Below are positions 23,619 to 36,239 of a stretch of DNA of 59,260 nt, piece by piece; within the stretch, counting starts at the first letter, position 1; each line of letters begins with the position of its first letter. Origin of the DNA: Flavobacteriales bacterium (GTDB lineage: Bacteria; Bacteroidota; Bacteroidia; Flavobacteriales; Schleiferiaceae); contig NSIH01000004.1 in the NCBI GenBank assembly GCA_002737315.1, positions 1 through 59,260 on the forward strand. The letters run 5' to 3'. The notes under the pieces were generated by a model that had not been told where the DNA came from, did no database searches, and was given only the letters and a program-made list of their open reading frames with translations. Position numbers and translations under genes: made by a program.

Positions 23619-26600
23619 TTGAAATTGATAAAAACCTATCTGCTGATGATATACCGCTGCCTGCTTGCCTTACTGCTTACCAATTCCTTAACAGCACTTT
23701 CTCAAAGTACAATATCTACCATGCCTGCCACGATCCCAAATAATGGGTTGGGGTCGATAACTTTTGAAATAAACGCCAATCAGCCTATTTTTTTGACGGG
23801 AATGACTAATGTTTTTAATGCGGCTTCGGGTAATTCGGGGCCCGTTGAAATCTGGTACCGTTTGGGTGGCGCCCTCGTAACAGGCCAAACGACCCCTTCG
23901 ATATCTACCTCAAACGGATGGGTTTTGGGCCTCACGGCGACATTAGTGAGTGCGGGTATTACCACCGCGACCAACATCCCCTTTAGTGGCACCATGATTC
24001 CGTTGCCCGCAAACCAGTCCATCGGAATATATGTCAATGGAGGTGCTCTCGGGTCTAGGTACATGACTTGGACCGCGGGAATTCAATCGGCTTTCACCGA
24101 CGGCAGTGTCACCATCAACACCATGCCAAACGGCTTTGGTGGATCGTTCCCAACCCCAAGTATTGCCTCGCGTGCATTCTGCGGCTCTATTACCTACATA
24201 CCCCAGGCTGCCTGCACGGGCACTCCCAATGCGGGAACGACCACTCCGAGCTTCACGGCAGTGTGTCCACTTCAGAATTTTTCTATATCTCTTACTGGTG
24301 CCACTGCAGCAGGCGGTTTGGCCTACCAATGGCAAACTGCCGCTGCCGCAACAGGCCCATGGACCAATATTCCAAACGCGACAACAGGGGTCGCCAGCGT
24401 TTCTCAAACAGTAGATACTTGGTACCGATGCGAGGTGACCTGTACCCCTTCGAGTGCCACCACGATCTCAAACCCCGTGCAGGTAACCACTTTACCTAAC
24501 CTTGCGGCAGGCACCTATACCATCGGTGCGGGCGGAACCTACCCCAGCTTCAACGCAGCTTTTGCGGCTGCTGCCTGCGGAGTAGCGGGACCTGTAGTTT
24601 TTCAGGTAATAGGGAGCTCTCCAATCTTCAACGAGCAGCTGCAAATCAATCAAATTCCTGGGATGTCCGCGACCAATACCATCAAGGTCAAGGGCAATTT
24701 TAACACCTTAAGTTTTGCAGCAACTGACCCTAGTTTACGCCATACGCTTCACCTGAATGGGGCGGACCACCTTAGGTTTGAAGACCTAACGATAGAGGCC
24801 ACCGGTGTGGCCTCGGGGTGGGCCGTGCGCATGAGCAATAACGCCAACCACAATACCTTCAAACGCTGTATCATTCGCACCAGCGAATCGTCTTCACTGT
24901 CTACCTATGTGGCATTTACCCTTACGCAGTCACCCACGGTAGCTAACGGAAGCCAGTCGGGTACTGCCTCCAACCTCATGATTGACTCCTGCCAAATTGT
25001 GGGTGGATACTACGGACTTTGCCTCAATGGCAATGGAATCGCAATGGGATCGCGCCCCAGCAACAACACGGTGCGCAATTCTAGCATCAGTAACTTTTAC
25101 TTATACGGGGTTTATGCATATGGCCAAAACGACTTGGTTCTGGAATACAACGACATCAATCGTTTGTCCCGTTCTTTGATAAGTACGTGCTATGGAATCT
25201 ACAACTTTGGGCGCAGTCCTGGCTTAAAAATCTTGTCCAACCGCATTCACGACCTAAGCGGAGTCCTTGGAACCACGGCCTTCACTGGATACCTAATTTA
25301 CTGCTCGAGCACGTCTGGTACGGCCGCGAGCCCTGCTCTGGTTGCAAACAACGCGATCTACAACATAAATAACTTAGGCAGCACGCTCTATGGGATGTAC
25401 ATGCTAACCACGGATACGGTTGAAGTGCTTCATAACACATTAGATATCAACTCGAATTCAGGCACGGGGGCGGCTACAGTCTACGGAGCCTATGTTTCCG
25501 GCAACATGAGCCAGTTCAACTTTAAGAACAACATCATGCAAATCGGTTCGTCGGGCACAGGTGCGAAGTATGGTCTGTACAACGCTTCCACCACGGCCTT
25601 AATAAATTCAAACTTTAACGCCATCCGCTTTACTTCGACTGTAGGCGGTTCAAGCAACTTCATAGGTGCCCAAAGCGCTTCTTTGACTTATCCAACCTTG
25701 GCCTCATGGACCGCGGCCACCGGTCGAGACGTCAACAGTATTTCAAGCGACCCTATTTTTACCAACGTTCTCGTTGGTGACTTGACCCCGATTTCGACTG
25801 CCTACAACAACGCCGGCGAAAACCAATTGGCAAAAGTGCCCCTTGACCTCAATCGGAACCCTCGTAGCATCACACCCGACCTTGGTGCAGTGGAATTTAC
25901 ACCCACAGGTTGTGCGCCTCCTTTCAACGTGAGCGTAACGAATGTTCGCGCCAGTTCCGCATTGGTGACCTTCAGCGGCACGGCTCCATCAACCAACCTG
26001 CAATGGGGACCCAAAGGATTTGTGCCGGGCACGGGCCAAGGTGCTACAGTTACCTCTCTTACCCACACCATTACCGGTTTGTCTGGCTACACCCAATACG
26101 ACGTTTACTTGGCGGGCAACTGCGGTACCCAAAATTCAATTTGGGTTGGACCTTATTCAATCCTTACGCCGGTTCAGGTTGGATGGACTGAGACCTTTGT
26201 CAATGGATACGACCCATTAGCGGCGGTAGCAAAACCCAAAGGTTGGGCTGAATTCAATGCAGTTGCCGCCAATCCTACTGTTCTGGTAGGCAATTCCTCG
26301 GCATGGATGGTCGACGGCTTTCTCAACGTTGGGACCACCGGTGCCGTGCGTAATCAGGTGCCCGCAACCTCCGTGGCCACTCAGGGTTGGACCATAACGC
26401 CCGGCATTGATTTGGGAGACGTGAGTCACACTACCTTTTTTGAGTGGAACATGGGCTTGACGCTTGCAAGCGGAGCTCAGGCCGCAGTTATGGGCAGCGA
26501 TGATACCTTGTTCGTACTGATCTCAACCAACAACGGCAGTACCTGGAACCGCAGCCAGGCTTTGGCAAAGTACCACCGCAACTCTAGCCTAAGTCCCTTT

Positions 26601-29600
26601 GGCGGAACCTATTCGGTGAACCTAAGTGCATACACAGGACTTGTTAAAATTGCTTTTTACCTAGAAAGTTTGACCAACAGCTCTTCGCAAATTGGAACGG
26701 TTAATTACGACCTTTTTATAGACAATACGGCCCTAAAGGCAACGGCCACGCCCTGTCCGGCAGCAGCATTGTCTCTTACTTCAACGACGTCTACTGCTAC
26801 GGTATCCTGGTCGGTGGCAGGGGTGGCAACAACTCCGGCAACAATTGCATGGGGTCCAATAGGGTTTATCATCGGCTCCGGAGGCTCTGGAGCCAATCAG
26901 TCGACCGCTACGACCAATCCCTTCACCATAAGCGGACTCCAGCAAGGAACAAGCTACCAGGTTTATGTGCAGTCGGCCTGCGCCGCCACCCTGGGCCAGT
27001 GGGCAGGCCCAATTACCTTCACCACGCCCTGCAACTTCACCCTTAGCGGTAGCTATACCATTAATTCCAATGGTGTTGGTGTGAATAACTTCAATAGCCT
27101 GTCTTCAGCTCTTGCCGCTATTACCAGTTGTGGAATCACCGGACCAGTGACCTTTACTTTGGCACCGTACACGCACATGGGCGGTCTTAATTTGGGCATG
27201 CTCAACGGATCTTCAGCGGTCAATACCGTGACCTTCCAAGGCCCGACGACTGGCACCGCCACTATCCAAGGTGCGGGCGGCCAAGTCGCTGCCGTGGTGC
27301 TTAACGGAACCGCGCACCTCACGCTTCGCAAGTTGCACATTGTTCACCCTACCGCATCGGGCATCATCATGACCGCAGGAGCCAACAATATTACCATTAC
27401 CGAAAACGTGATTCTAGCTGATACCTCGGCCACAGGGGTCACCATTGCAGGCATTGCGTCTTCGTCAGACTTGACTTCGGTAACAGGCTATGGCAATAAT
27501 GCTAACAACATTACGATCACTGATAATATCATAAAAGGGGGCTACTATGGCGTTCGGTTTAACGGAACCAGTGCCACGTCCTTCAACACGGGCATTAACC
27601 TCTCGGGCAATTCTATAACGAAGTCATACCTCTACGGTACCTACTTCTACTACATGGGCAACTTGACCATCAACGACAACGTGGTCAAAGGGCTACGCAA
27701 CAGCATCAACTACGGCTACTACCTCTATTACGTGGGTAACGTATCTATGCAGCGCAATGAAGCCTATGTCACATACTACGGAATCACGATGGGGTACCTC
27801 AACAACCAAACGAAGCCAGCTATTAATAGCTTGATTGCCAACAATATGATGGCGTCATCTACGAACTACGGAGCATATTTCCCTTATCTGCGACACGTAA
27901 ACATTTACCACAACACCTTCTTGGGTAATACCTATGGCATCTACCTTCTTTCGAGCACGACGGCTACGTTGACCTCAAAAAACTTGAATTTGCGCAACAA
28001 CATTTTTAAGGGCGGGACCTATGCGCTTTATCAGAGTTCGCTGCCGGATTCGATGACCCTGGACTACAACTTATATAATTCAGACGCCGCAACATTTGCA
28101 TTCTACAACACGGCCCAGGCGAGTTTGGCTGCCTGGAAGGCGAGCTACCCATCATTGAACGTGAATTCTACTGATATCCCGGTGATTTTTAATGCGAACG
28201 ATGACTTGCATGTAGTGAACACTGGTCCTAACAATTTAGGAACCCCAATTCCGAGTATTGCTGTAGACCTTGACGGCGATAGCCGATCTGCCACGATGCC
28301 TGACATTGGTGCCGACGAATTTACCCCCTTGGCAAACGACCTTCAGCTTCTCGGGCTGATTGTACCCAACAACAACGCCTGCGGTGATTCGAACACTTCG
28401 GTTTCAGTGATAATTCGCAATTTGGGTACGGCGTCGCAAAGCAACTTTGCAGTAGGGGCCAACGTTTCGGGCGCAGCGACAGCTAACTTCACAGGTATAT
28501 TCGCGGGCACATTGCCCTCGCTATCAACCGATACGGTAGCCTTAGGCACCTTCAATTCTGTCGTCGGTGGAACCTTCGTATTCAGGGGCTACGTGGCTTT
28601 AACCAACGACGGTAAGTCCTCTAACGATACCCTGTTAGTGAACCGCAACCTGCTTGATGCCCTGCCCCCTATCCCCACGGCCTCGATAGATACCCTGTGC
28701 GATGGCGGGTTCGCAACACTGTACTTCCCTTCGGTTACGGGCAACGCTTCTTACCGCTGGCTGACTACGTCGGGTGATACCCTTGGCACATCGGACAGTT
28801 TATTGGTTGGCCCCATGAACGCCGCAGATACAACGTTTGTGCTCCGCCAAACCTCGACTTCAGGTCAAGTTGGTCCATTGAATAATACCATCGGAGCCAC
28901 ATCGAATTACACTGCCATGAACCACTATCTGCTATTCACAGTAAATGCGCCGACAACCATTCATAGTTTGGACGTGTTTGCTCTAAATAGCGGTTTGATT
29001 GATGTAGTAATTCAAAATGCCTTGACAACAGCCATTGTTCAGACCGTGACTGTTCCTTCCACCGGTGCCGGCTTTAATCGATTGATAGTAAATATTCCAC
29101 TTCCGCCAGGGGACTACCGTATGGGCAGTACGACGACCAATAACGCGGGCGGACTTCAACGCAATTCCTCGGGGGCTTCGTATCCTTACCTTTCGACGGA
29201 CGGGAGCGTGACAATTACCGGATCGTCGTTCGGCGCGGCTTCTTATTACTATTTCTACAACTGGCAGTTGGGCGGTGGCGGTTGCCCGCGTCCTGATGGT
29301 GAGGTGACTCTCTACCGTCGAGCTGCGCCTACTGCGAGCTTTACCAGCACGCCTCAAGCGGCAACGCTTGCGGCTATGAATGTTGACTTTGATGCAAGCG
29401 CAACAACGAATGCAATCACCTACGACTGGAACTTTGGCGACGGAGGCACCGCATCGGGTGCTCAGGTCAGCCACAGCTATGCCGCGAACGGAACCTACGG
29501 CGTGACCCTTTTGGCTACCGGTTTATGTGGAGTCGATACCTTGGTTGTTCCTGTACTAGTGGCCGGCATCAATGTGGCGGAGTCTGCCTTAAGCCGCAGC

Positions 29601-29846
29601 CTGAGTATGTATCCAAACCCTACTGCGGGCCTATTCCATGTGGACTTTGACTTAGGCTCCATGCAGCATGCAGAGCTCAAAGTGGTCAATGCCTTGGGTC
29701 AATCGGTTTATGTGCGCATCTTGGAGTCTGCGAGCGGACTTCAGCACCACAGCATTGATCTTCGCGGTCACGCCTCGGGTCTTTATTGGCTTCAGATAAC
29801 CAGCGAAGAAGGCCAGGCGATGCAGCGCGTAGCGCTTCAGAAGTAG
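23619..29846 (+). CDS. Giant secreted right-handed beta-helix / Fn3-like / PKD protein with T9SS type A sorting domain (2075 aa)
   Basis: N-terminal signal (TTG start at 23619 or ATG at 23646: MIYRCLLALLLTNSLTALSQ); two beta-helix blocks; PKD-like ITYDWNFGDGGTASGAQVSHSYAANGTYGVTLL; C-terminal SMYPNPTAGLFHVDFD...GLYWLQITSEEGQAMQRVALQK. Confidence 0.9.
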   Translation: MKLIKTYLLMIYRCLLALLLTNSLTALSQSTISTMPATIPNNGLGSITFEINANQPIFLTGMTNVFNAASGNSGPVEIWYRLGGALVTGQTTPSISTSNGWVLGLTATLVSAGITTATNIPFSGTMIPLPANQSIGIYVNGGALGSRYMTWTAGIQSAFTDGSVTINTMPNGFGGSFPTPSIASRAFCGSITYIPQAACTGTPNAGTTTPSFTAVCPLQNFSISLTGATAAGGLAYQWQTAAAATGPWTNIPNATTGVASVSQTVDTWYRCEVTCTPSSATTISNPVQVTTLPNLAAGTYTIGAGGTYPSFNAAFAAAACGVAGPVVFQVIGSSPIFNEQLQINQIPGMSATNTIKVKGNFNTLSFAATDPSLRHTLHLNGADHLRFEDLTIEATGVASGWAVRMSNNANHNTFKRCIIRTSESSSLSTYVAFTLTQSPTVANGSQSGTASNLMIDSCQIVGGYYGLCLNGNGIAMGSRPSNNTVRNSSISNFYLYGVYAYGQNDLVLEYNDINRLSRSLISTCYGIYNFGRSPGLKILSNRIHDLSGVLGTTAFTGYLIYCSSTSGTAASPALVANNAIYNINNLGSTLYGMYMLTTDTVEVLHNTLDINSNSGTGAATVYGAYVSGNMSQFNFKNNIMQIGSSGTGAKYGLYNASTTALINSNFNAIRFTSTVGGSSNFIGAQSASLTYPTLASWTAATGRDVNSISSDPIFTNVLVGDLTPISTAYNNAGENQLAKVPLDLNRNPRSITPDLGAVEFTPTGCAPPFNVSVTNVRASSALVTFSGTAPSTNLQWGPKGFVPGTGQGATVTSLTHTITGLSGYTQYDVYLAGNCGTQNSIWVGPYSILTPVQVGWTETFVNGYDPLAAVAKPKGWAEFNAVAANPTVLVGNSSAWMVDGFLNVGTTGAVRNQVPATSVATQGWTITPGIDLGDVSHTTFFEWNMGLTLASGAQAAVMGSDDTLFVLISTNNGSTWNRSQALAKYHRNSSLSPFGGTYSVNLSAYTGLVKIAFYLESLTNSSSQIGTVNYDLFIDNTALKATATPCPAAALSLTSTTSTATVSWSVAGVATTPATIAWGPIGFIIGSGGSGANQSTATTNPFTISGLQQGTSYQVYVQSACAATLGQWAGPITFTTPCNFTLSGSYTINSNGVGVNNFNSLSSALAAITSCGITGPVTFTLAPYTHMGGLNLGMLNGSSAVNTVTFQGPTTGTATIQGAGGQVAAVVLNGTAHLTLRKLHIVHPTASGIIMTAGANNITITENVILADTSATGVTIAGIASSSDLTSVTGYGNNANNITITDNIIKGGYYGVRFNGTSATSFNTGINLSGNSITKSYLYGTYFYYMGNLTINDNVVKGLRNSINYGYYLYYVGNVSMQRNEAYVTYYGITMGYLNNQTKPAINSLIANNMMASSTNYGAYFPYLRHVNIYHNTFLGNTYGIYLLSSTTATLTSKNLNLRNNIFKGGTYALYQSSLPDSMTLDYNLYNSDAATFAFYNTAQASLAAWKASYPSLNVNSTDIPVIFNANDDLHVVNTGPNNLGTPIPSIAVDLDGDSRSATMPDIGADEFTPLANDLQLLGLIVPNNNACGDSNTSVSVIIRNLGTASQSNFAVGANVSGAATANFTGIFAGTLPSLSTDTVALGTFNSVVGGTFVFRGYVALTNDGKSSNDTLLVNRNLLDALPPIPTASIDTLCDGGFATLYFPSVTGNASYRWLTTSGDTLGTSDSLLVGPMNAADTTFVLRQTSTSGQVGPLNNTIGATSNYTAMNHYLLFTVNAPTTIHSLDVFALNSGLIDVVIQNALTTAIVQTVTVPSTGAGFNRLIVNIPLPPGDYRMGSTTTNNAGGLQRNSSGASYPYLSTDGSVTITGSSFGAASYYYFYNWQLGGGGCPRPDGEVTLYRRAAPTASFTSTPQAATLAAMNVDFDASATTNAITYDWNFGDGGTASGAQVSHSYAANGTYGVTLLATGLCGVDTLVVPVLVAGINVAESALSRSLSMYPNPTAGLFHVDFDLGSMQHAELKVVNALGQSVYVRILESASGLQHHSIDLRGHASGLYWLQITSEEGQAMQRVALQK

Positions 29847-29921: not shown

Positions 29922-30314
29922 GCATATCGTCCGCCTTGCCGCCTTAAAGTATTTCGGTACCAGAGGGAGGAAAGTCCGGACATCACAGAGCACCGCGCTA
30001 CCTAACGGGTAGGCAGTTGAGGGGCAACCCAAGGCTGACAGCTAGTGCCACAGAGAGGGAAACCGCCGCCGGTTGCATCGTACGAGTACCGGAGGTAAGG
30101 GTGAAAAGGTGGGGTAAGAGCCCACCAGCGTCGAAAGCAATTTCGATGGCTTGGTAAACCTCGCGGGATGAAATGCCATGTAGGCTGGCGCTTGAAGACT
30201 GTTCGTCTGAGCCAGCGGGTAGGCAGCTTGAGCAGTTGGGTGACCAACTGCCTAGATTAATGGCAAGGACGCGCTTTACAGCGCGGACAGAATCCGGCTT
30301 ATAGGACGATATGC
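29922..30314 (+). ncRNA. rnpB: RNase P RNA, bacterial class A
   Basis: GAGGGAGGAAAGTCCGGACATCACAGAGCACCG... and ...CAGAATCCGGCTTATAG signatures; termini GCATATCGTCC / GGACGATATGC pair perfectly. Confidence 0.96.
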
Positions 30315-30328
30315 TTTCTACGACCGAA

Positions 30329-30377: not shown

Positions 30378-32759
30378 ATGTCTTCATTTACAGATCTCGG
30401 CCTACGTGCCGAATTACTTCAAGCGGTTAGTACGCTTGGCTTTGAACTAGCAACGCCAGTTCAGGCCGAAACAATTCCAATTCTTCTCAATGCTAAGGGC
30501 CAAACCGACATGGTTGCCTTGGCTCAAACCGGTACCGGTAAAACGGCTGCATTTGGCTTGCCATTGCTGCACATGCTTCTTGAAGACGGCGAACCGTCGG
30601 CAAAGAATCGACCGAAGGCCCTAATTCTCGCTCCAACGCGCGAACTCTGTGTTCAGATTTCGGCCGAGATGGAGAAGTACGCTACCGAAACCGGACTGCG
30701 AATTCTTGCGGTTTATGGAGGTTCCTCCATGCGCACTCAGGTTACCGCCCTCAAGAGAGGCGTAGATATTTTAATGGCGACGCCCGGAAGGTTGCTCGAT
30801 TTGAACCGCCAAGGGCAGGTTCTTTTTGATGATCTTCAGTACATCGTGCTCGACGAAGCCGACGAGATGCTCAACATGGGCTTTTGGGATGACGTGCAAG
30901 AGGTTCTCAAGCAGGCTCCCGAGGGCCGAAACATTTGGTGCTTTAGCGCAACCCTGCCCAAGCCCATCGATGCGATGACCAAGACTCTGATGAACAACCC
31001 CGTTCGCGTTCAGATCGGTCAGCGCAATTCGGGTACTGCCACTGTTTCCCATACTGTTTTTGTAGTCCCCAAGGAGCACCGATACAGCGGTTTGCGCCGC
31101 CTTCTCGACAGCGCGCCTGGCCTTTATGGCATGATTTTTTGCCGCACCAAGATCGAAACGCAGGAGCTCTCGGAGCGTCTTGTGGCCGAAGGATACACTG
31201 CCTCAGCCCTGCACGGCGACTTGAGCCAGCAGCAGCGTGACTTGGTGATGCAGTCCTTTCGTCACAAGAGGATTAAGCTTCTGGTCTGCACCGACGTAGC
31301 AGCCCGTGGAATTGACGTTCAAGACCTGTCTCACGTTATTCACTTCGGATTCCCTAACGACACCGAGAGCTATACCCACCGCAGTGGCCGTACCGGCCGT
31401 GCTGGAAAATCCGGTCAGAGTTGGTCCCTAATCAACCCCATGGAGCGCCGCAAGATCGCCTACATCCAGAAATCGATTCAACGCGAAATGCTGCAGAGCC
31501 AGTTACCGACCCGCGATGAGGTTCTTGCGCGTCAGGTTAACTACTTCGCCGAAGAATTTGCCGCACACCCAGAGGCTCCTGAGAACATCAAGCCACTTAT
31601 TGAAGCCATCATGCCCCAGTTTGAGCATTTAACCTCTAGAGAGCTCATCGAGCGCTTTTTTGCGGCAGAGCTTCACGAGTTGGTTCAGCACTACGTAATG
31701 GAGCAGCAAGAAATTCCCTCGGTTCGTGCCCAAAAGGAGCGCAGAGAGCGAGGCGACGATTTTGAAGAGCGCGGACCAAAGCGTGCCCGTAACATGGACG
31801 CTCCCGTGGAGCAGCGCTTCTTTATCAACGTGGGCACAGCCCAAGGCTTCAGCTGGTTCTCCCTCAAGGATTTCTTGCGCGAGACGGTGCGATTGGGAGA
31901 AAACGACGTTCAAGGAGTGAACTGCGAAGATGCCCACAGCTACTTTAACGTGCCCGAGTCCCGTGTGGCCGACGTACGCACAGCACTAGAGGGTTCCTTG
32001 ATTCAAGGCGTTGAGGTAAAACTCGACGCGGTTGAAGATCAAGTCGGACGCTTTGAGCGCGACAAAGGACCTCGTAACGATCGCTTTGGTGGCGGTCGTC
32101 CCCAGGGTAAGTTTGGCGACCGAGGCGGTCGTGGCGGCTACCAAGGTGGCGGCGGTGGCGGCTACCAAGGTGGTGGCGGCGGAGGCTTCAGAGACCGAGG
32201 CGGTGACCGTGGCGGCTATCAAGGTGGCGGCGGAAGCGGCTACCAAGGTGGCGGCGGTGGCGGCTTCAGAGACCGTGGCGGCTACCAAGGCGGCGGCGGT
32301 GGCGGTGGCTTTCGTGACCGAGGCGGCTATCAAGGCGGCGGCAGTGGTGGCGGCGGATTCCGCGATCAAGGCGGCAACCGTGGTGGTTATCAAGGCGGTG
32401 CAGGAGCAGGATCACGTGATCAAGGTGCGGACCGTGGCGGTTCTCAGGGCGACAGTGCCCGCGGAGGTTCATGGACCCAGCGTCAAGAATCGCCCGATTG
32501 GGCTCAAGGTGGCGGAGGTGAAGACCGCGCTAGTGCCTTCAACCGCGGTGCAAGCGATTCCTTCGGTGGTGCTTCGGGCAAGCCTCGCTTAAGTTCAGGC
32601 GGAAAGCCAAGCTTTGGTGGAGCCAAGCGCTTTGGTGGAGGTGCAGGCGGAAGCCGACCAAGCTTTGGCGGAGGTGCGGGCGGCGGAAGCCGACCAAGCT
32701 TTGGCGGAGGCGATAAGCCTGGCTTTGGCGGCAAACCTAGCGGACGCAAGCGCTTGTAA
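30378..32759 (+). CDS. DEAD-box RNA helicase with DbpA-type RNA-binding domain and long Gly/Arg-rich tail (793 aa)
   Basis: ALAQTGTGKTAAFGLPLL, APTRELCVQ, DEADEMLNMGF, SATLP, HRSGRTGRAGKSG; DbpA-like FFINVGTAQGFSWFSLKDFLRE; repeated GGYQGGGGGGFRDRGG. Confidence 0.96.
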   Translation: MSSFTDLGLRAELLQAVSTLGFELATPVQAETIPILLNAKGQTDMVALAQTGTGKTAAFGLPLLHMLLEDGEPSAKNRPKALILAPTRELCVQISAEMEKYATETGLRILAVYGGSSMRTQVTALKRGVDILMATPGRLLDLNRQGQVLFDDLQYIVLDEADEMLNMGFWDDVQEVLKQAPEGRNIWCFSATLPKPIDAMTKTLMNNPVRVQIGQRNSGTATVSHTVFVVPKEHRYSGLRRLLDSAPGLYGMIFCRTKIETQELSERLVAEGYTASALHGDLSQQQRDLVMQSFRHKRIKLLVCTDVAARGIDVQDLSHVIHFGFPNDTESYTHRSGRTGRAGKSGQSWSLINPMERRKIAYIQKSIQREMLQSQLPTRDEVLARQVNYFAEEFAAHPEAPENIKPLIEAIMPQFEHLTSRELIERFFAAELHELVQHYVMEQQEIPSVRAQKERRERGDDFEERGPKRARNMDAPVEQRFFINVGTAQGFSWFSLKDFLRETVRLGENDVQGVNCEDAHSYFNVPESRVADVRTALEGSLIQGVEVKLDAVEDQVGRFERDKGPRNDRFGGGRPQGKFGDRGGRGGYQGGGGGGYQGGGGGGFRDRGGDRGGYQGGGGSGYQGGGGGGFRDRGGYQGGGGGGGFRDRGGYQGGGSGGGGFRDQGGNRGGYQGGAGAGSRDQGADRGGSQGDSARGGSWTQRQESPDWAQGGGGEDRASAFNRGASDSFGGASGKPRLSSGGKPSFGGAKRFGGGAGGSRPSFGGGAGGGSRPSFGGGDKPGFGGKPSGRKRL
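32110..32410 (+). repeat. In-frame tandem low-complexity repeat encoding GGYQGGGGGGFRDRGG units
   Basis: Repeated GGCGGCTACCAAGGTGGCGGCGG / GGCTTCAGAGACCGAGGCGG units. Confidence 0.85.
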
Positions 32760-33856: not shown

Positions 33857-33929
33857 CGGGATGTAGCTCAGGTGGTAGAGTGCACGTCTGGGGGGCGTGA
33901 GGTCGCAGGTTCAAGTCCTGTCATCCCGA
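33857..33929 (+). tRNA. tRNA-Pro (anticodon GGG)
   Basis: CGGGATG...CATCCCG acceptor; CACGT-CTGGGGG-GCGTG anticodon arm; GCAGG-TTCAAGT-CCTGT T arm. Confidence 0.92.
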
Positions 33930-33944
33930 CTAAATTTCCCTAAG

Positions 33945-33976: not shown

Positions 33977-34070
33977 ATGGTTCATGCATACTCCAATATT
34001 TGTTTGTAAATTGTTGTTTATTAATGGGTTATCGGCTTTAAGTTTAAAATAAAATAAAGTTATTAACAGG

Positions 34071-34102
34071 TTTAGGAAATGCAATATTTTTTGATACTTT
34101 AG
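34071..34102 (+). promoter_or_regulatory. Candidate promoter of the structured RNA (-33 TTTAG, 19-bp spacer, -7 TACTTTAG)
   Basis: TTTAG at 34071-34075 and TACTTTAG at 34095-34102; the same -7 variant precedes the lipoprotein at 15368. Confidence 0.5.
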
Positions 34103-34107
34103 TAAAG

Positions 34108-34657
34108 CGTAAAAGAAAAAAGCGAATGGCAACAAGATGCTTTTTTCTGCTTCTGCTCTCAGAGCAATTAGCTAGCGTTGAGGAATTTAAGTGAGATTTT
34201 TATCTTGCGAGTAGAGGAAGGCCTTGCTTGGCTGACCAACACAAACCTCAAAGAACCCTATGCGTCCAATGACGATTGGAACCACGTAGAAAGGTTTATG
34301 GGAGGTTGTGCCTCCCGGCCAGCACGAGACACCCTTGGGTGTTGGAGTTTACTCCTTTCGTGCTGCTCAATTACTGAGTGGAGAGCTTAGGTTCGAGACT
34401 CGGAGTGGAAAAAGCCACGAACCGTCGCTTGCACGGTCTAGTTGAGAGAAAGACCGCTCACGGAATCTTGAAATAGAGGTTCGGTAGCCTCTGTCGAGAG
34501 GAAGGCCTGAGTGAGTTCTTTCAAAGTTCGATTCACCAGGTTCAGGCTAATGGTGGTAAGGTCGAGCAAAAACCGTCCTATGGGACGTGTGGGTACTACA
34601 TTCTCATTGAGTGTTTCCACTGAGCGCGGTTTCGAAAGAAGCCGCGCTTGTTTTTTA
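34108..34657 (+). ncRNA. Candidate novel large structured RNA (about 550 nt), family not recognised
   Basis: No convincing ORF; continuous series of perfect or near-perfect hairpins and long-range helices, flanked by a promoter-like element and a strong terminator (details in findings). Confidence 0.7.
34623..34656 (+). terminator. Intrinsic terminator of the candidate structured RNA
   Basis: AGCGCGGTTTC-GAAA-GAAGCCGCGCT (11 bp with one G-T wobble, tetraloop GAAA) followed by TGTTTTTT. Confidence 0.88.
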
Positions 34658-34667
34658 CCCCCTTTTT

Positions 34668-34707
34668 GTAAGGGGTAAGCATAAAAAGTAAGGGGTAAGC
34701 ATAAAAA
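34668..34707. repeat. 20-bp tandem direct repeat GTAAGGGGTAAGCATAAAAA x2
   Basis: Identical copies at 34668-34687 and 34688-34707. Confidence 0.9.
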
Positions 34708-34754: not shown

Positions 34755-36239
34755 TTAGTGAATTCCGCGCATGAGCTTGCGCAGCAGAGGAGTAAGGGCA
34801 AACAAGAGTGCTGCACCAACCGCCGAGGTGATGGTAAGAAACACAAACAAATTCATGTCGGGAGCGATGGAGTGCAGCAGGCTCTCCATAATTCCAGAGA
34901 GGTAGTTGGCCAAAGCCATAGAGGCAAACCAAAGGCCCATGACAATGCTCACAATTTTAGGCGGAGCCAGTTTGGTAATCATAGAAAGTCCGATGGGGGA
35001 GATGCAAAGCTCGCCAAAGGTGTGGAGCACATAAACCCCCACAAGCCACATGGGGCTGATGAGCTCCTCGCCACTGGCTGCAAAGCTCGCGAACGACATG
35101 ACAACAAAACCCACCGACAGCAGGACTAGGCCAAGGCCAAATTTAACGGGCGTGGAGGGATTCATGTTGCGCATGGCCAAGGTGACCCAAAGCGAGCCAA
35201 AGAGGGGCGCAAAAATGAAGATGGCCAGGGCGTTCACGCTCTGAAAGAGGGATGCGGCAATCTCGTAACCAAAAATATTCCTGTCGATTTCTTCGGCGGC
35301 AAAGAGGTTAAAGGTTCCGCCGGCCTGCTCAAATCCGCTCCAAAAGAAGATGTTGGCAACCATAAAAATTAGAATGGCGCCCACACGGCTCCACTGCTCA
35401 GAACCGTTAGTACCGCTGTAAATGATGTAGGCAACCCCCGCAATGGCCAGAACGGCCACCACCTTAAGCGCCAACGACATGGTTTCTTCGGGAATTGCTT
35501 CTTGCAGGGCCAAAAATCCAAGGACCGTGGCCATGGAACCCACGACGTATGCGGCTATGGTGCCAAAGTCAGAAGGCTTTAGGCGCAGGCCTTCGCGGCC
35601 CGGTGGCATTCCTCGACCATCGAGTTTGGGCTCTTCGATATAAAGCCAAACGGTGGCAAGCAGCATACCGACTCCAGCACTGCCGAAACCATACATCCAG
35701 CCCACTTGCTCGCCAAGGGTTCCGCAAATAACGGGCGACAGAAAAGCGCCGAGGTTGATTCCCATGTAAAATATGGTGAAGGCCGAGTCCTTACGCGGAT
35801 CGTTGTCGGTGTAAAGAGCACCTACAATAGTGGAGATATTGGGCTTAAAAAATCCGTTGCCGGCAATTAAAAGACCGAGCCCTAGGTGAAACAACCATTG
35901 TCGGGTGGCTTCGTCTGCCGCATAGGCATGCGACCCGGCCAGGGCAAACTGCCCAAAGGCCATCAGAAATCCGCCGATATAGATAGCCCTTCGCTGCCCT
36001 AAAATTCGGTCGGCAAGGGCGCCACCTATGATGGGGGTCAGGTAGACCAATCCCGTGAAAATCCCGTAAATCTCTAGCGCAGAGGCCCGGTCCATTCCGA
36101 ATCCGCCCCGGGCGTACTCGGTGGTGAGGTAAAGAACCAAAAGAGCCCGCATGCCATAGTAGCTAAAGCGTTCCCACATCTCTGTGAAAAATAGGGTGTA
36201 GAGTCCGCGCGGATGCGCCATTTTTTGAGACGTAGCCAT
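34755..36239 (-). CDS. POT/PTR family peptide:H+ symporter (MFS)
   Basis: GLYTLFFTEMWERFSYYGMRALLVLYL...GGALADRILGQRRAIYIGG...FTIFYMGINLGAFLSPVICGTLGE. Confidence 0.95.
   Translation of the reverse strand: MATSQKMAHPRGLYTLFFTEMWERFSYYGMRALLVLYLTTEYARGGFGMDRASALEIYGIFTGLVYLTPIIGGALADRILGQRRAIYIGGFLMAFGQFALAGSHAYAADEATRQWLFHLGLGLLIAGNGFFKPNISTIVGALYTDNDPRKDSAFTIFYMGINLGAFLSPVICGTLGEQVGWMYGFGSAGVGMLLATVWLYIEEPKLDGRGMPPGREGLRLKPSDFGTIAAYVVGSMATVLGFLALQEAIPEETMSLALKVVAVLAIAGVAYIIYSGTNGSEQWSRVGAILIFMVANIFFWSGFEQAGGTFNLFAAEEIDRNIFGYEIAASLFQSVNALAIFIFAPLFGSLWVTLAMRNMNPSTPVKFGLGLVLLSVGFVVMSFASFAASGEELISPMWLVGVYVLHTFGELCISPIGLSMITKLAPPKIVSIVMGLWFASMALANYLSGIMESLLHSIAPDMNLFVFLTITSAVGAALLFALTPLLRKLMRGIH

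Follow-up and report, generated by a model that had tools for sequence, protein, structure and literature searches.

A candidate new family of large structured RNAs at a conserved chromosomal locus in one genus of Flavobacteriales

The window (the whole stretch of DNA that was analysed, 59,260 nucleotides from a Flavobacteriales bacterium of the Schleiferiaceae) contains a candidate RNA gene of about 550 nt at positions 34105-34656 of the + strand, bounded by a -7 promoter box and an intrinsic terminator. With a probability of roughly 0.6, as judged from sequence comparison, this gene belongs to a new family of large structured RNAs that are transcribed independently and act in trans, with a scaffold-type action. 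The anatomical part of this reading, i.e. one gene per genome, equipped with a promoter and a terminator of its own, and a preserved paired architecture, can be regarded as almost certain. The source genome of the window measures 1.36 Mb in 51 contigs and is 84% complete, and the genomes with which it was compared are likewise draft assemblies from uncultured bacteria.

The gene lies downstream of tRNA-Pro(GGG) (33857-33930, + strand), and a POT-family transporter gene (34755-36239, - strand) converges on it. The sequence-only reading of this DNA had described a 780-bp gap without a credible open reading frame between these two genes, and sequence, coordinates and neighbours match that description. 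A terminator-like hairpin stands directly behind the tRNA gene, which means that the RNA does not arise by read-through from the tRNA. The promoter-like boxes and the 11-bp GAAA-capped terminator were also present as that reading had stated: TTTAG (34071-34075, + strand, by inspection) in the -33 region, TACTTTAG (34095-34102, + strand) as the -7 box, and AGCGCGGTTTC(GAAA)..CCGCGCTTG followed by T6 (34623-34656, + strand). The -7 box is of the sigma-A type, with TAnnTTTG at -12 to -5, the consensus reported for Bacteroidota sigma-A promoters (PMC9723704); aligned across 19 promoters it most often reads TACTTTCAT. Together the boxes predict a start of the RNA at about 34107. The terminator is followed by the tail TTGTC or a close variant in each of the four RNA types described below. 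Further upstream stands the element TTATTAACA (34060-34068, + strand; consensus TTWTNMAC[A]), about 39-47 nt before the RNA start (about 40-50 nt when the relatives are included), and it occurs at a near-constant distance in 19/19 aligned promoters that represent all four types. In types 2 and 3 a palindrome, TGTTTAAACA, is conserved near -120. Both are possibly regulator or UP-type sites. The TTWTNMAC[A] element looks like a DnaA box, and this, together with a slight shift of skew along the window, gave rise to the idea of a DnaA-regulated or oriC-linked RNA, which was rejected as the GC skew on the relatives' contigs showed no consistent switch at the RNA.

Some features of the surroundings can be added. 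Between the RNA terminator and that of the transporter a unit of about 20 bp, GTAAGGGGTAAGCATAAAAA, occurs twice in tandem (34660-34705). Just upstream (30378-32759) a DEAD-box RNA helicase is encoded with a DbpA-like domain and a long Gly-rich tail; the order helicase - TrxB - tRNA-Pro - RNA of the window is repeated in a type-2 genome (L103, 3-548), and the helicase could be a partner of the RNA or its position mere synteny. Adjoining the RNase P gene, positions 23619-29846 encode a protein of 2075 amino acids in which fibronectin-like and right-handed beta-helix-like repeats and a C-terminus resembling a type IX secretion sorting signal were seen by eye.

The predicted fold of the RNA has an energy of -211.6 kcal/mol compared with -170.2 +/- 7.1 kcal/mol for 100 dinucleotide shuffles (z -5.8), none of which was as low. 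This fold, and the helices kept across the orthologues, bear out the earlier claim of a helix-dense structured RNA. On neither strand was an open reading frame above chance length found (the longest ran to 72 codons, against a mean of 82 in shuffled sequence), nor was a conserved one found on the sense strand. A coding function was rejected, as the many stops exclude a protein product and the open stretches are of chance length.

By a blastn-type search the RNA was recognised in seven congeners, with identities of 69-90%, and in none of 38 genomes from other genera. The orthologues sit downstream of tRNA-Pro(GGG) wherever the contig shows it in type-1 and type-2 genomes. In the full-length alignment of 7 type-1 orthologues, 174 consensus pairs were arranged in 30 helix segments with 93% of cells paired, a share biased upward since the pairing was taken from this very alignment; in slid controls it was 35-43%. 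Double-sided changes were counted at 84 pairs vs 43.8 +/- 4.3 in shuffled and 12-24 in slid controls, a value reached in 0/500 shuffles, and the covariation score was 0.488 vs 0.249 (shuffled) and 0.07-0.13 (slid). The 3' domain, aligned separately (8 sequences, 158 columns), gave 50 pairs, 21 of them with double-sided change, with 96% of cells paired compared with 31-50% in slid controls; again 0/500 shuffles were as high. One stem appears in turn as GAATC/GGTTC, GAACC/GGTTC, GATCC/GGATC and GACC/GGTC. The effect size and such individual helix replacements are hard to explain otherwise than by selection on structure. The alignments indicate that it is the base-paired architecture of the RNA, and not its sequence, that selection preserves. 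Conservation and covariation, named beforehand as the tests on which the sequence-only reading might fail, thus both turned out strongly positive.

The consensus structure divides the type-1 RNA into a series of domains, all given here on the + strand. The 5' domain (34106-34179) is closed by P1 (34106-34110/34175-34179), which encloses small hairpins; inspection of the type 2-4 sequences revealed a counterpart of P1, GCACA/UGUGU. Inside this domain the proposed helix AGAAAAAAGC/GCTTTTTTCT (34114/34139) held in the window and its nearest relative and failed elsewhere, and is lineage-specific. The second domain (34180-34249) has the closing helix GAGGAATTT / ..AAACCTC and contains CCTTGCTTGG (34222-34231), which is invariant in 7/7 full-length type-1 sequences and was not traced in the other types. 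It is followed by two hairpins (34254-34316), an AACC..GGTT arm with CCAAT(GACG)ATTGG and a GGGAGG/CCTCCC stem, by a three-way junction (34321-34364) closed by AGCACGA/TCGTGCT, in which 6/7 pairs covary, and by a multibranch domain (34366-34446) closed by CTCAATT/AGTTGAG. The pairing of GGTTCG 34390 with CGAACC 34418, assigned earlier to this region, had to be abandoned, since merely 1-3 of its 6 pairs form in most relatives.

In the 3' core (34448-34523) the proposed long-range helix GAAAGA..GCTCA/TGAGT..TCTTTC was recovered. The AGAGG 34475/CCTCT 34488 pairing that it was thought to enclose was not; the helix actually surrounds two hairpins, GAATC..GGTTC (GAATCTTGAAATAGAGGTTC, 34463-34482) and CCTCT..AGAGG (CCTCTGTCGAGAGG, 34488-34501). 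The former has a loop UUGRRAUAG, common to types 1-4, that by its sequence reads as putatively T-loop-like. The core is followed by a two-step hairpin (34526-34567) with a conserved loop TCAGGCT, the hairpin CGTCC(TATG)GGACG (34574-34587), which in relatives has a UACG tetraloop on a covarying stem, and the hairpin GTGG..CCAC (34589-34620) with an inner ACATTC..GAGTGT. Most of the helices paired by hand in the sequence-only reading survived the comparison: those at 34266/34275, 34300/34311, 34321/34358, 34329/34338, 34527/34562, 34534/34551, 34574/34583 and 34589/34617, as well as the terminator, are conserved in the seven orthologues with double-sided changes.

At the same site, other congeners (L101-L106) carry an RNA of about 655-672 nt (type 2) that gives no blastn alignment to the RNA of the window and has the same promoter boxes and start (AAAGCRCAACAG) as type 1. 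On its own, type 2 has 186 pairs, 78 of them with double-sided change. A covariance model trained on the 3' domain of type-1 sequences only (R1) recovered type 2 on the correct strand and in register, with 34.5 bits and E 4.8e-8 for L106 and E 0.003-0.03 in 88 kb for the other type-2 loci. The same model also recovered a third type in two genomes (L128, L131), again on the correct strand and in register. A joint model (R2) recovered five congeners outside its training set (L140-L144) with 33-55 bits, and matched a record of an uncultured Cryomorphaceae bacterium (L009) with E 8.5e-7. The lengths are 552-563 nt for type 1, about 655-672 nt for type 2, 616-623 nt for type 3 and 826 nt for type 4. 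This last and largest version is known from a single sequence (L143, 888-1713), which has 12 GNRA loops in its minimum-energy fold. The -7 box, the upstream TTWTNMAC element and, by inspection, P1 are common to all types, as are the UUGRRAUAG-loop hairpin, a UNCG-type hairpin just before the terminator and the terminator; the middle domains differ in size.

Exactly one copy of the RNA was found with R2 in 20/22 congeners. In one of the remaining two (G021) the contig stops 111 bases beyond the FAD oxidoreductase gene, at the expected site of the RNA, and in the assembly of the other (G007) neither tRNA-Pro(GGG) nor the FAD oxidoreductase was found; both misses look like assembly gaps. In the 66 other genomes of the family, from 18 other genera, R2 matched terminators only. 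A sample of 398 genomes of the order gave it no hit beyond the genus, and one of 395 genomes from elsewhere in the phylum gave none at all; both samples were searched under stricter filters that weak relatives can escape. Matches of 18-24 bits in the sister genus g6 (L145-L148) were rejected as ordinary terminators with the core GCCGCCCTACGGGGCGGC or like, and their scores set the false-positive floor for searches with models of this RNA. In sister genera, protein genes come immediately after the FAD oxidoreductase orthologue and after tRNA-Pro(GGG), and no RNA was present at these homologous sites. These searches suggest that the RNA originated at the base of the genus, unless it exists elsewhere in a form that escapes recognition; more distant relatives may have diverged beyond the reach of the model.

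Within the genus the locus is kept beside tRNA-Pro(GGG) and/or the FAD oxidoreductase. Type 3-4 genomes do not have the RNA adjoining tRNA-Pro. In congeners of the window's genome the interval between the POT transporter and the RNA holds an FAD-dependent oxidoreductase, a NUDIX-like gene or both. We infer that the ancestral order was tRNA-Pro - RNA - FAD oxidoreductase - NUDIX-like gene - POT transporter; the oxidoreductase would have been lost in the type-1 lineages and the NUDIX-like gene also in the lineage of the window. Gene order indicates that the RNA is inherited vertically at one conserved chromosomal locus. A mobile element is excluded because of the single copy and the synteny. A phage or plasmid origin was rejected too: blastn against 50,697 phage and 72,556 plasmid records revealed no similar DNA, and three scans of viral contigs for conserved words gave model scores at chance level.

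The sequence-only reading had offered two choices, a known family that it failed to recognise or a new ornate RNA, having seen no tmRNA, 6S, SRP, RNase P, riboswitch or intron signatures. The second choice was supported by cmscan with all 4227 Rfam 15 models, applied to the window (E<=5) and to 18 orthologous loci (E<=0.5-1): the RNA did not reach a gathering threshold and gave no match to any of these models, and those thresholds were reached at the loci by tRNA only and elsewhere by RNase P. The best sub-threshold overlaps were at chance level (L20_leader, 17.5 bits of 58.7; MicX, 23.6 of 75). RNase P RNA, tmRNA and SRP RNA are also stable structured housekeeping RNAs, and the RNA matches none of their models (including Bacteria_small_SRP and class A RNase P); neither a tRNA-like domain nor a tag ORF of tmRNA was found in it by ARAGORN or Rfam. 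A diverged version of one of these was rejected since their genes stand elsewhere in the genome, RNase P (RNaseP_bact_a, 285 bits) at 29923-30317 of the window, 4 kb upstream of the RNA, tmRNA (150 bits) on contig C42 and SRP RNA on contig C49. In the literature searched, which covered subscription journals and preprints thinly, no account of such an RNA in this group was found. The RNA family is thus new to the searched sources, in which there was no model, phage relative or paper.

How the RNA acts may be approached by weighing the alternatives. A cis-acting leader, or a functionless by-product of the tRNA-Pro transcript, is suggested by the gene order of type-1 and type-2 genomes, where the RNA comes after tRNA-Pro(GGG) with both on one strand, and is extremely unlikely: a leader role is excluded because of the terminator and the converging neighbour, the tRNA has its terminator-like hairpin and the RNA its own promoter, type 3-4 RNAs lie away from the tRNA, and the covariation implies selection on the RNA itself. 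The RNA might stand in for a seemingly missing housekeeping RNA, for example a 6S-like RNA that binds RNA polymerase, as 6S-Flavo (RF01685) was found in 0/22 congeners. That search was equally silent in control genomes, however, and so does not establish an absence; the RNA, which does not match the 6S and 6S-Flavo models, has a multi-domain consensus fold and not a single long hairpin with a central bubble. Moreover, tmRNA and RNase P are in this genome and SRP RNA is present in 19/22 congeners, which makes such a replacement improbable.

A new large ribozyme, acting on itself or on other RNAs with the 3' core as its catalytic part, would fit a size and complexity in the range of large ribozymes, the dense tertiary packing suggested by the many GNRA loops of types 2 and 4, and the conserved unpaired loops UUGRRAUAG, TCAGGCT and CCTTGCTTGG. 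It is nevertheless quite unlikely, as the Rfam scans linked the RNA neither to RNase P nor to group I or II introns, it is neither mobile nor inserted in a gene, and no cleavage or splice site is marked. Group II introns, among them those with a circularly permuted order (PMC8637638), are likewise large and multi-domain, and a string in one relative (L004) had suggested their domain V. This candidate was dropped: the string is not conserved in other relatives and forms a hairpin of about 20 nt, whereas domain V has 34 nt, and group II intron models gave no match at E<=1 to 5 in the window and the orthologous loci. Rather unlikely is also a large sRNA regulator whose exposed loops base-pair with mRNAs and whose remaining parts serve as a stabilising scaffold. 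The independent gene signals including the terminator and invariant stretches such as CCTTGCTTGG would agree with this, and Rfp18 of Flavobacterium, another relative within the Flavobacteriales, is a precedent for a structured trans-acting RNA (PMC9723704). Rfp18, by its description, is set apart as a small regulatory RNA from a different family of the order; the present RNA greatly exceeds pairing sRNAs in size and in structure, CCTTGCTTGG is invariant in type 1 and was not traced in the other types, and pairing does not require an architecture conserved over 550 nt.

A scaffold is favoured over both a ribozyme and a pairing regulator because selection maintains the whole-molecule architecture of about 30 helix segments while the sequence is free. 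Scaffolding is chosen over catalysis or base pairing on the grounds of size, complexity and structural conservation only. The predicted RNA would accumulate as a stable molecule and act through its three-dimensional shape; it may serve as scaffold in a ribonucleoprotein or in an assembly of RNA only, comparably to OLE, ROOL and GOLLD and without kinship to them. The conserved 3' core would then carry the function, and the middle domains would elaborate the structure. Cryo-EM has shown that OLE, ROOL and GOLLD form homo-oligomeric RNA complexes (PMC12286853). ROOL and GOLLD resemble the present RNA as ornate, multi-domain noncoding RNAs of about 600-850 nt, often near tRNA genes (PMC12286853), but their genes belong to phages and prophages; the present RNA is chromosomal, single-copy and vertically inherited and has no relative in the phage records searched. 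OLE is a large ornate chromosomal RNA and an RNP scaffold in extremophilic Firmicutes (PMC12286853); it is of similar size and belongs to a different phylum, with no sequence or structure match. The covariance models of GOLLD, ROOL and OLE did not match the RNA, and a functional likeness to these RNAs is proposed here by analogy. What is new is the RNA class; 'large ornate RNAs' as an informal group already has precedents. For a housekeeping RNA it would be unusual to be confined to a single genus, and this counts against the scaffold reading.

Length and the number of covarying helices place this RNA in the small set of the most complex bacterial RNAs. Its chromosomal, single-copy and near-universal presence in the genus argues for a cellular and not a phage role. 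Because the identity between types is below blastn detection, family libraries miss such lineage-specific large RNAs. The four size classes (about 550, 620, 660 and 830 nt) within one genus amount to a natural set of deletions, from which the dispensable domains can be read, and offer a good entry to function. A more far-reaching and tentative view, which we hold to be possible but doubtful, is that the RNA would form the genus-universal centre of a new RNP, of an RNA-only assembly or of a ribozyme, and would perform a biochemical task not known from any bacterial RNA; it would have arisen within one small-genome Flavobacteriales lineage and been kept in every species while its middle domains were rebuilt. 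The genus would thus seem to own a large RNA machine.
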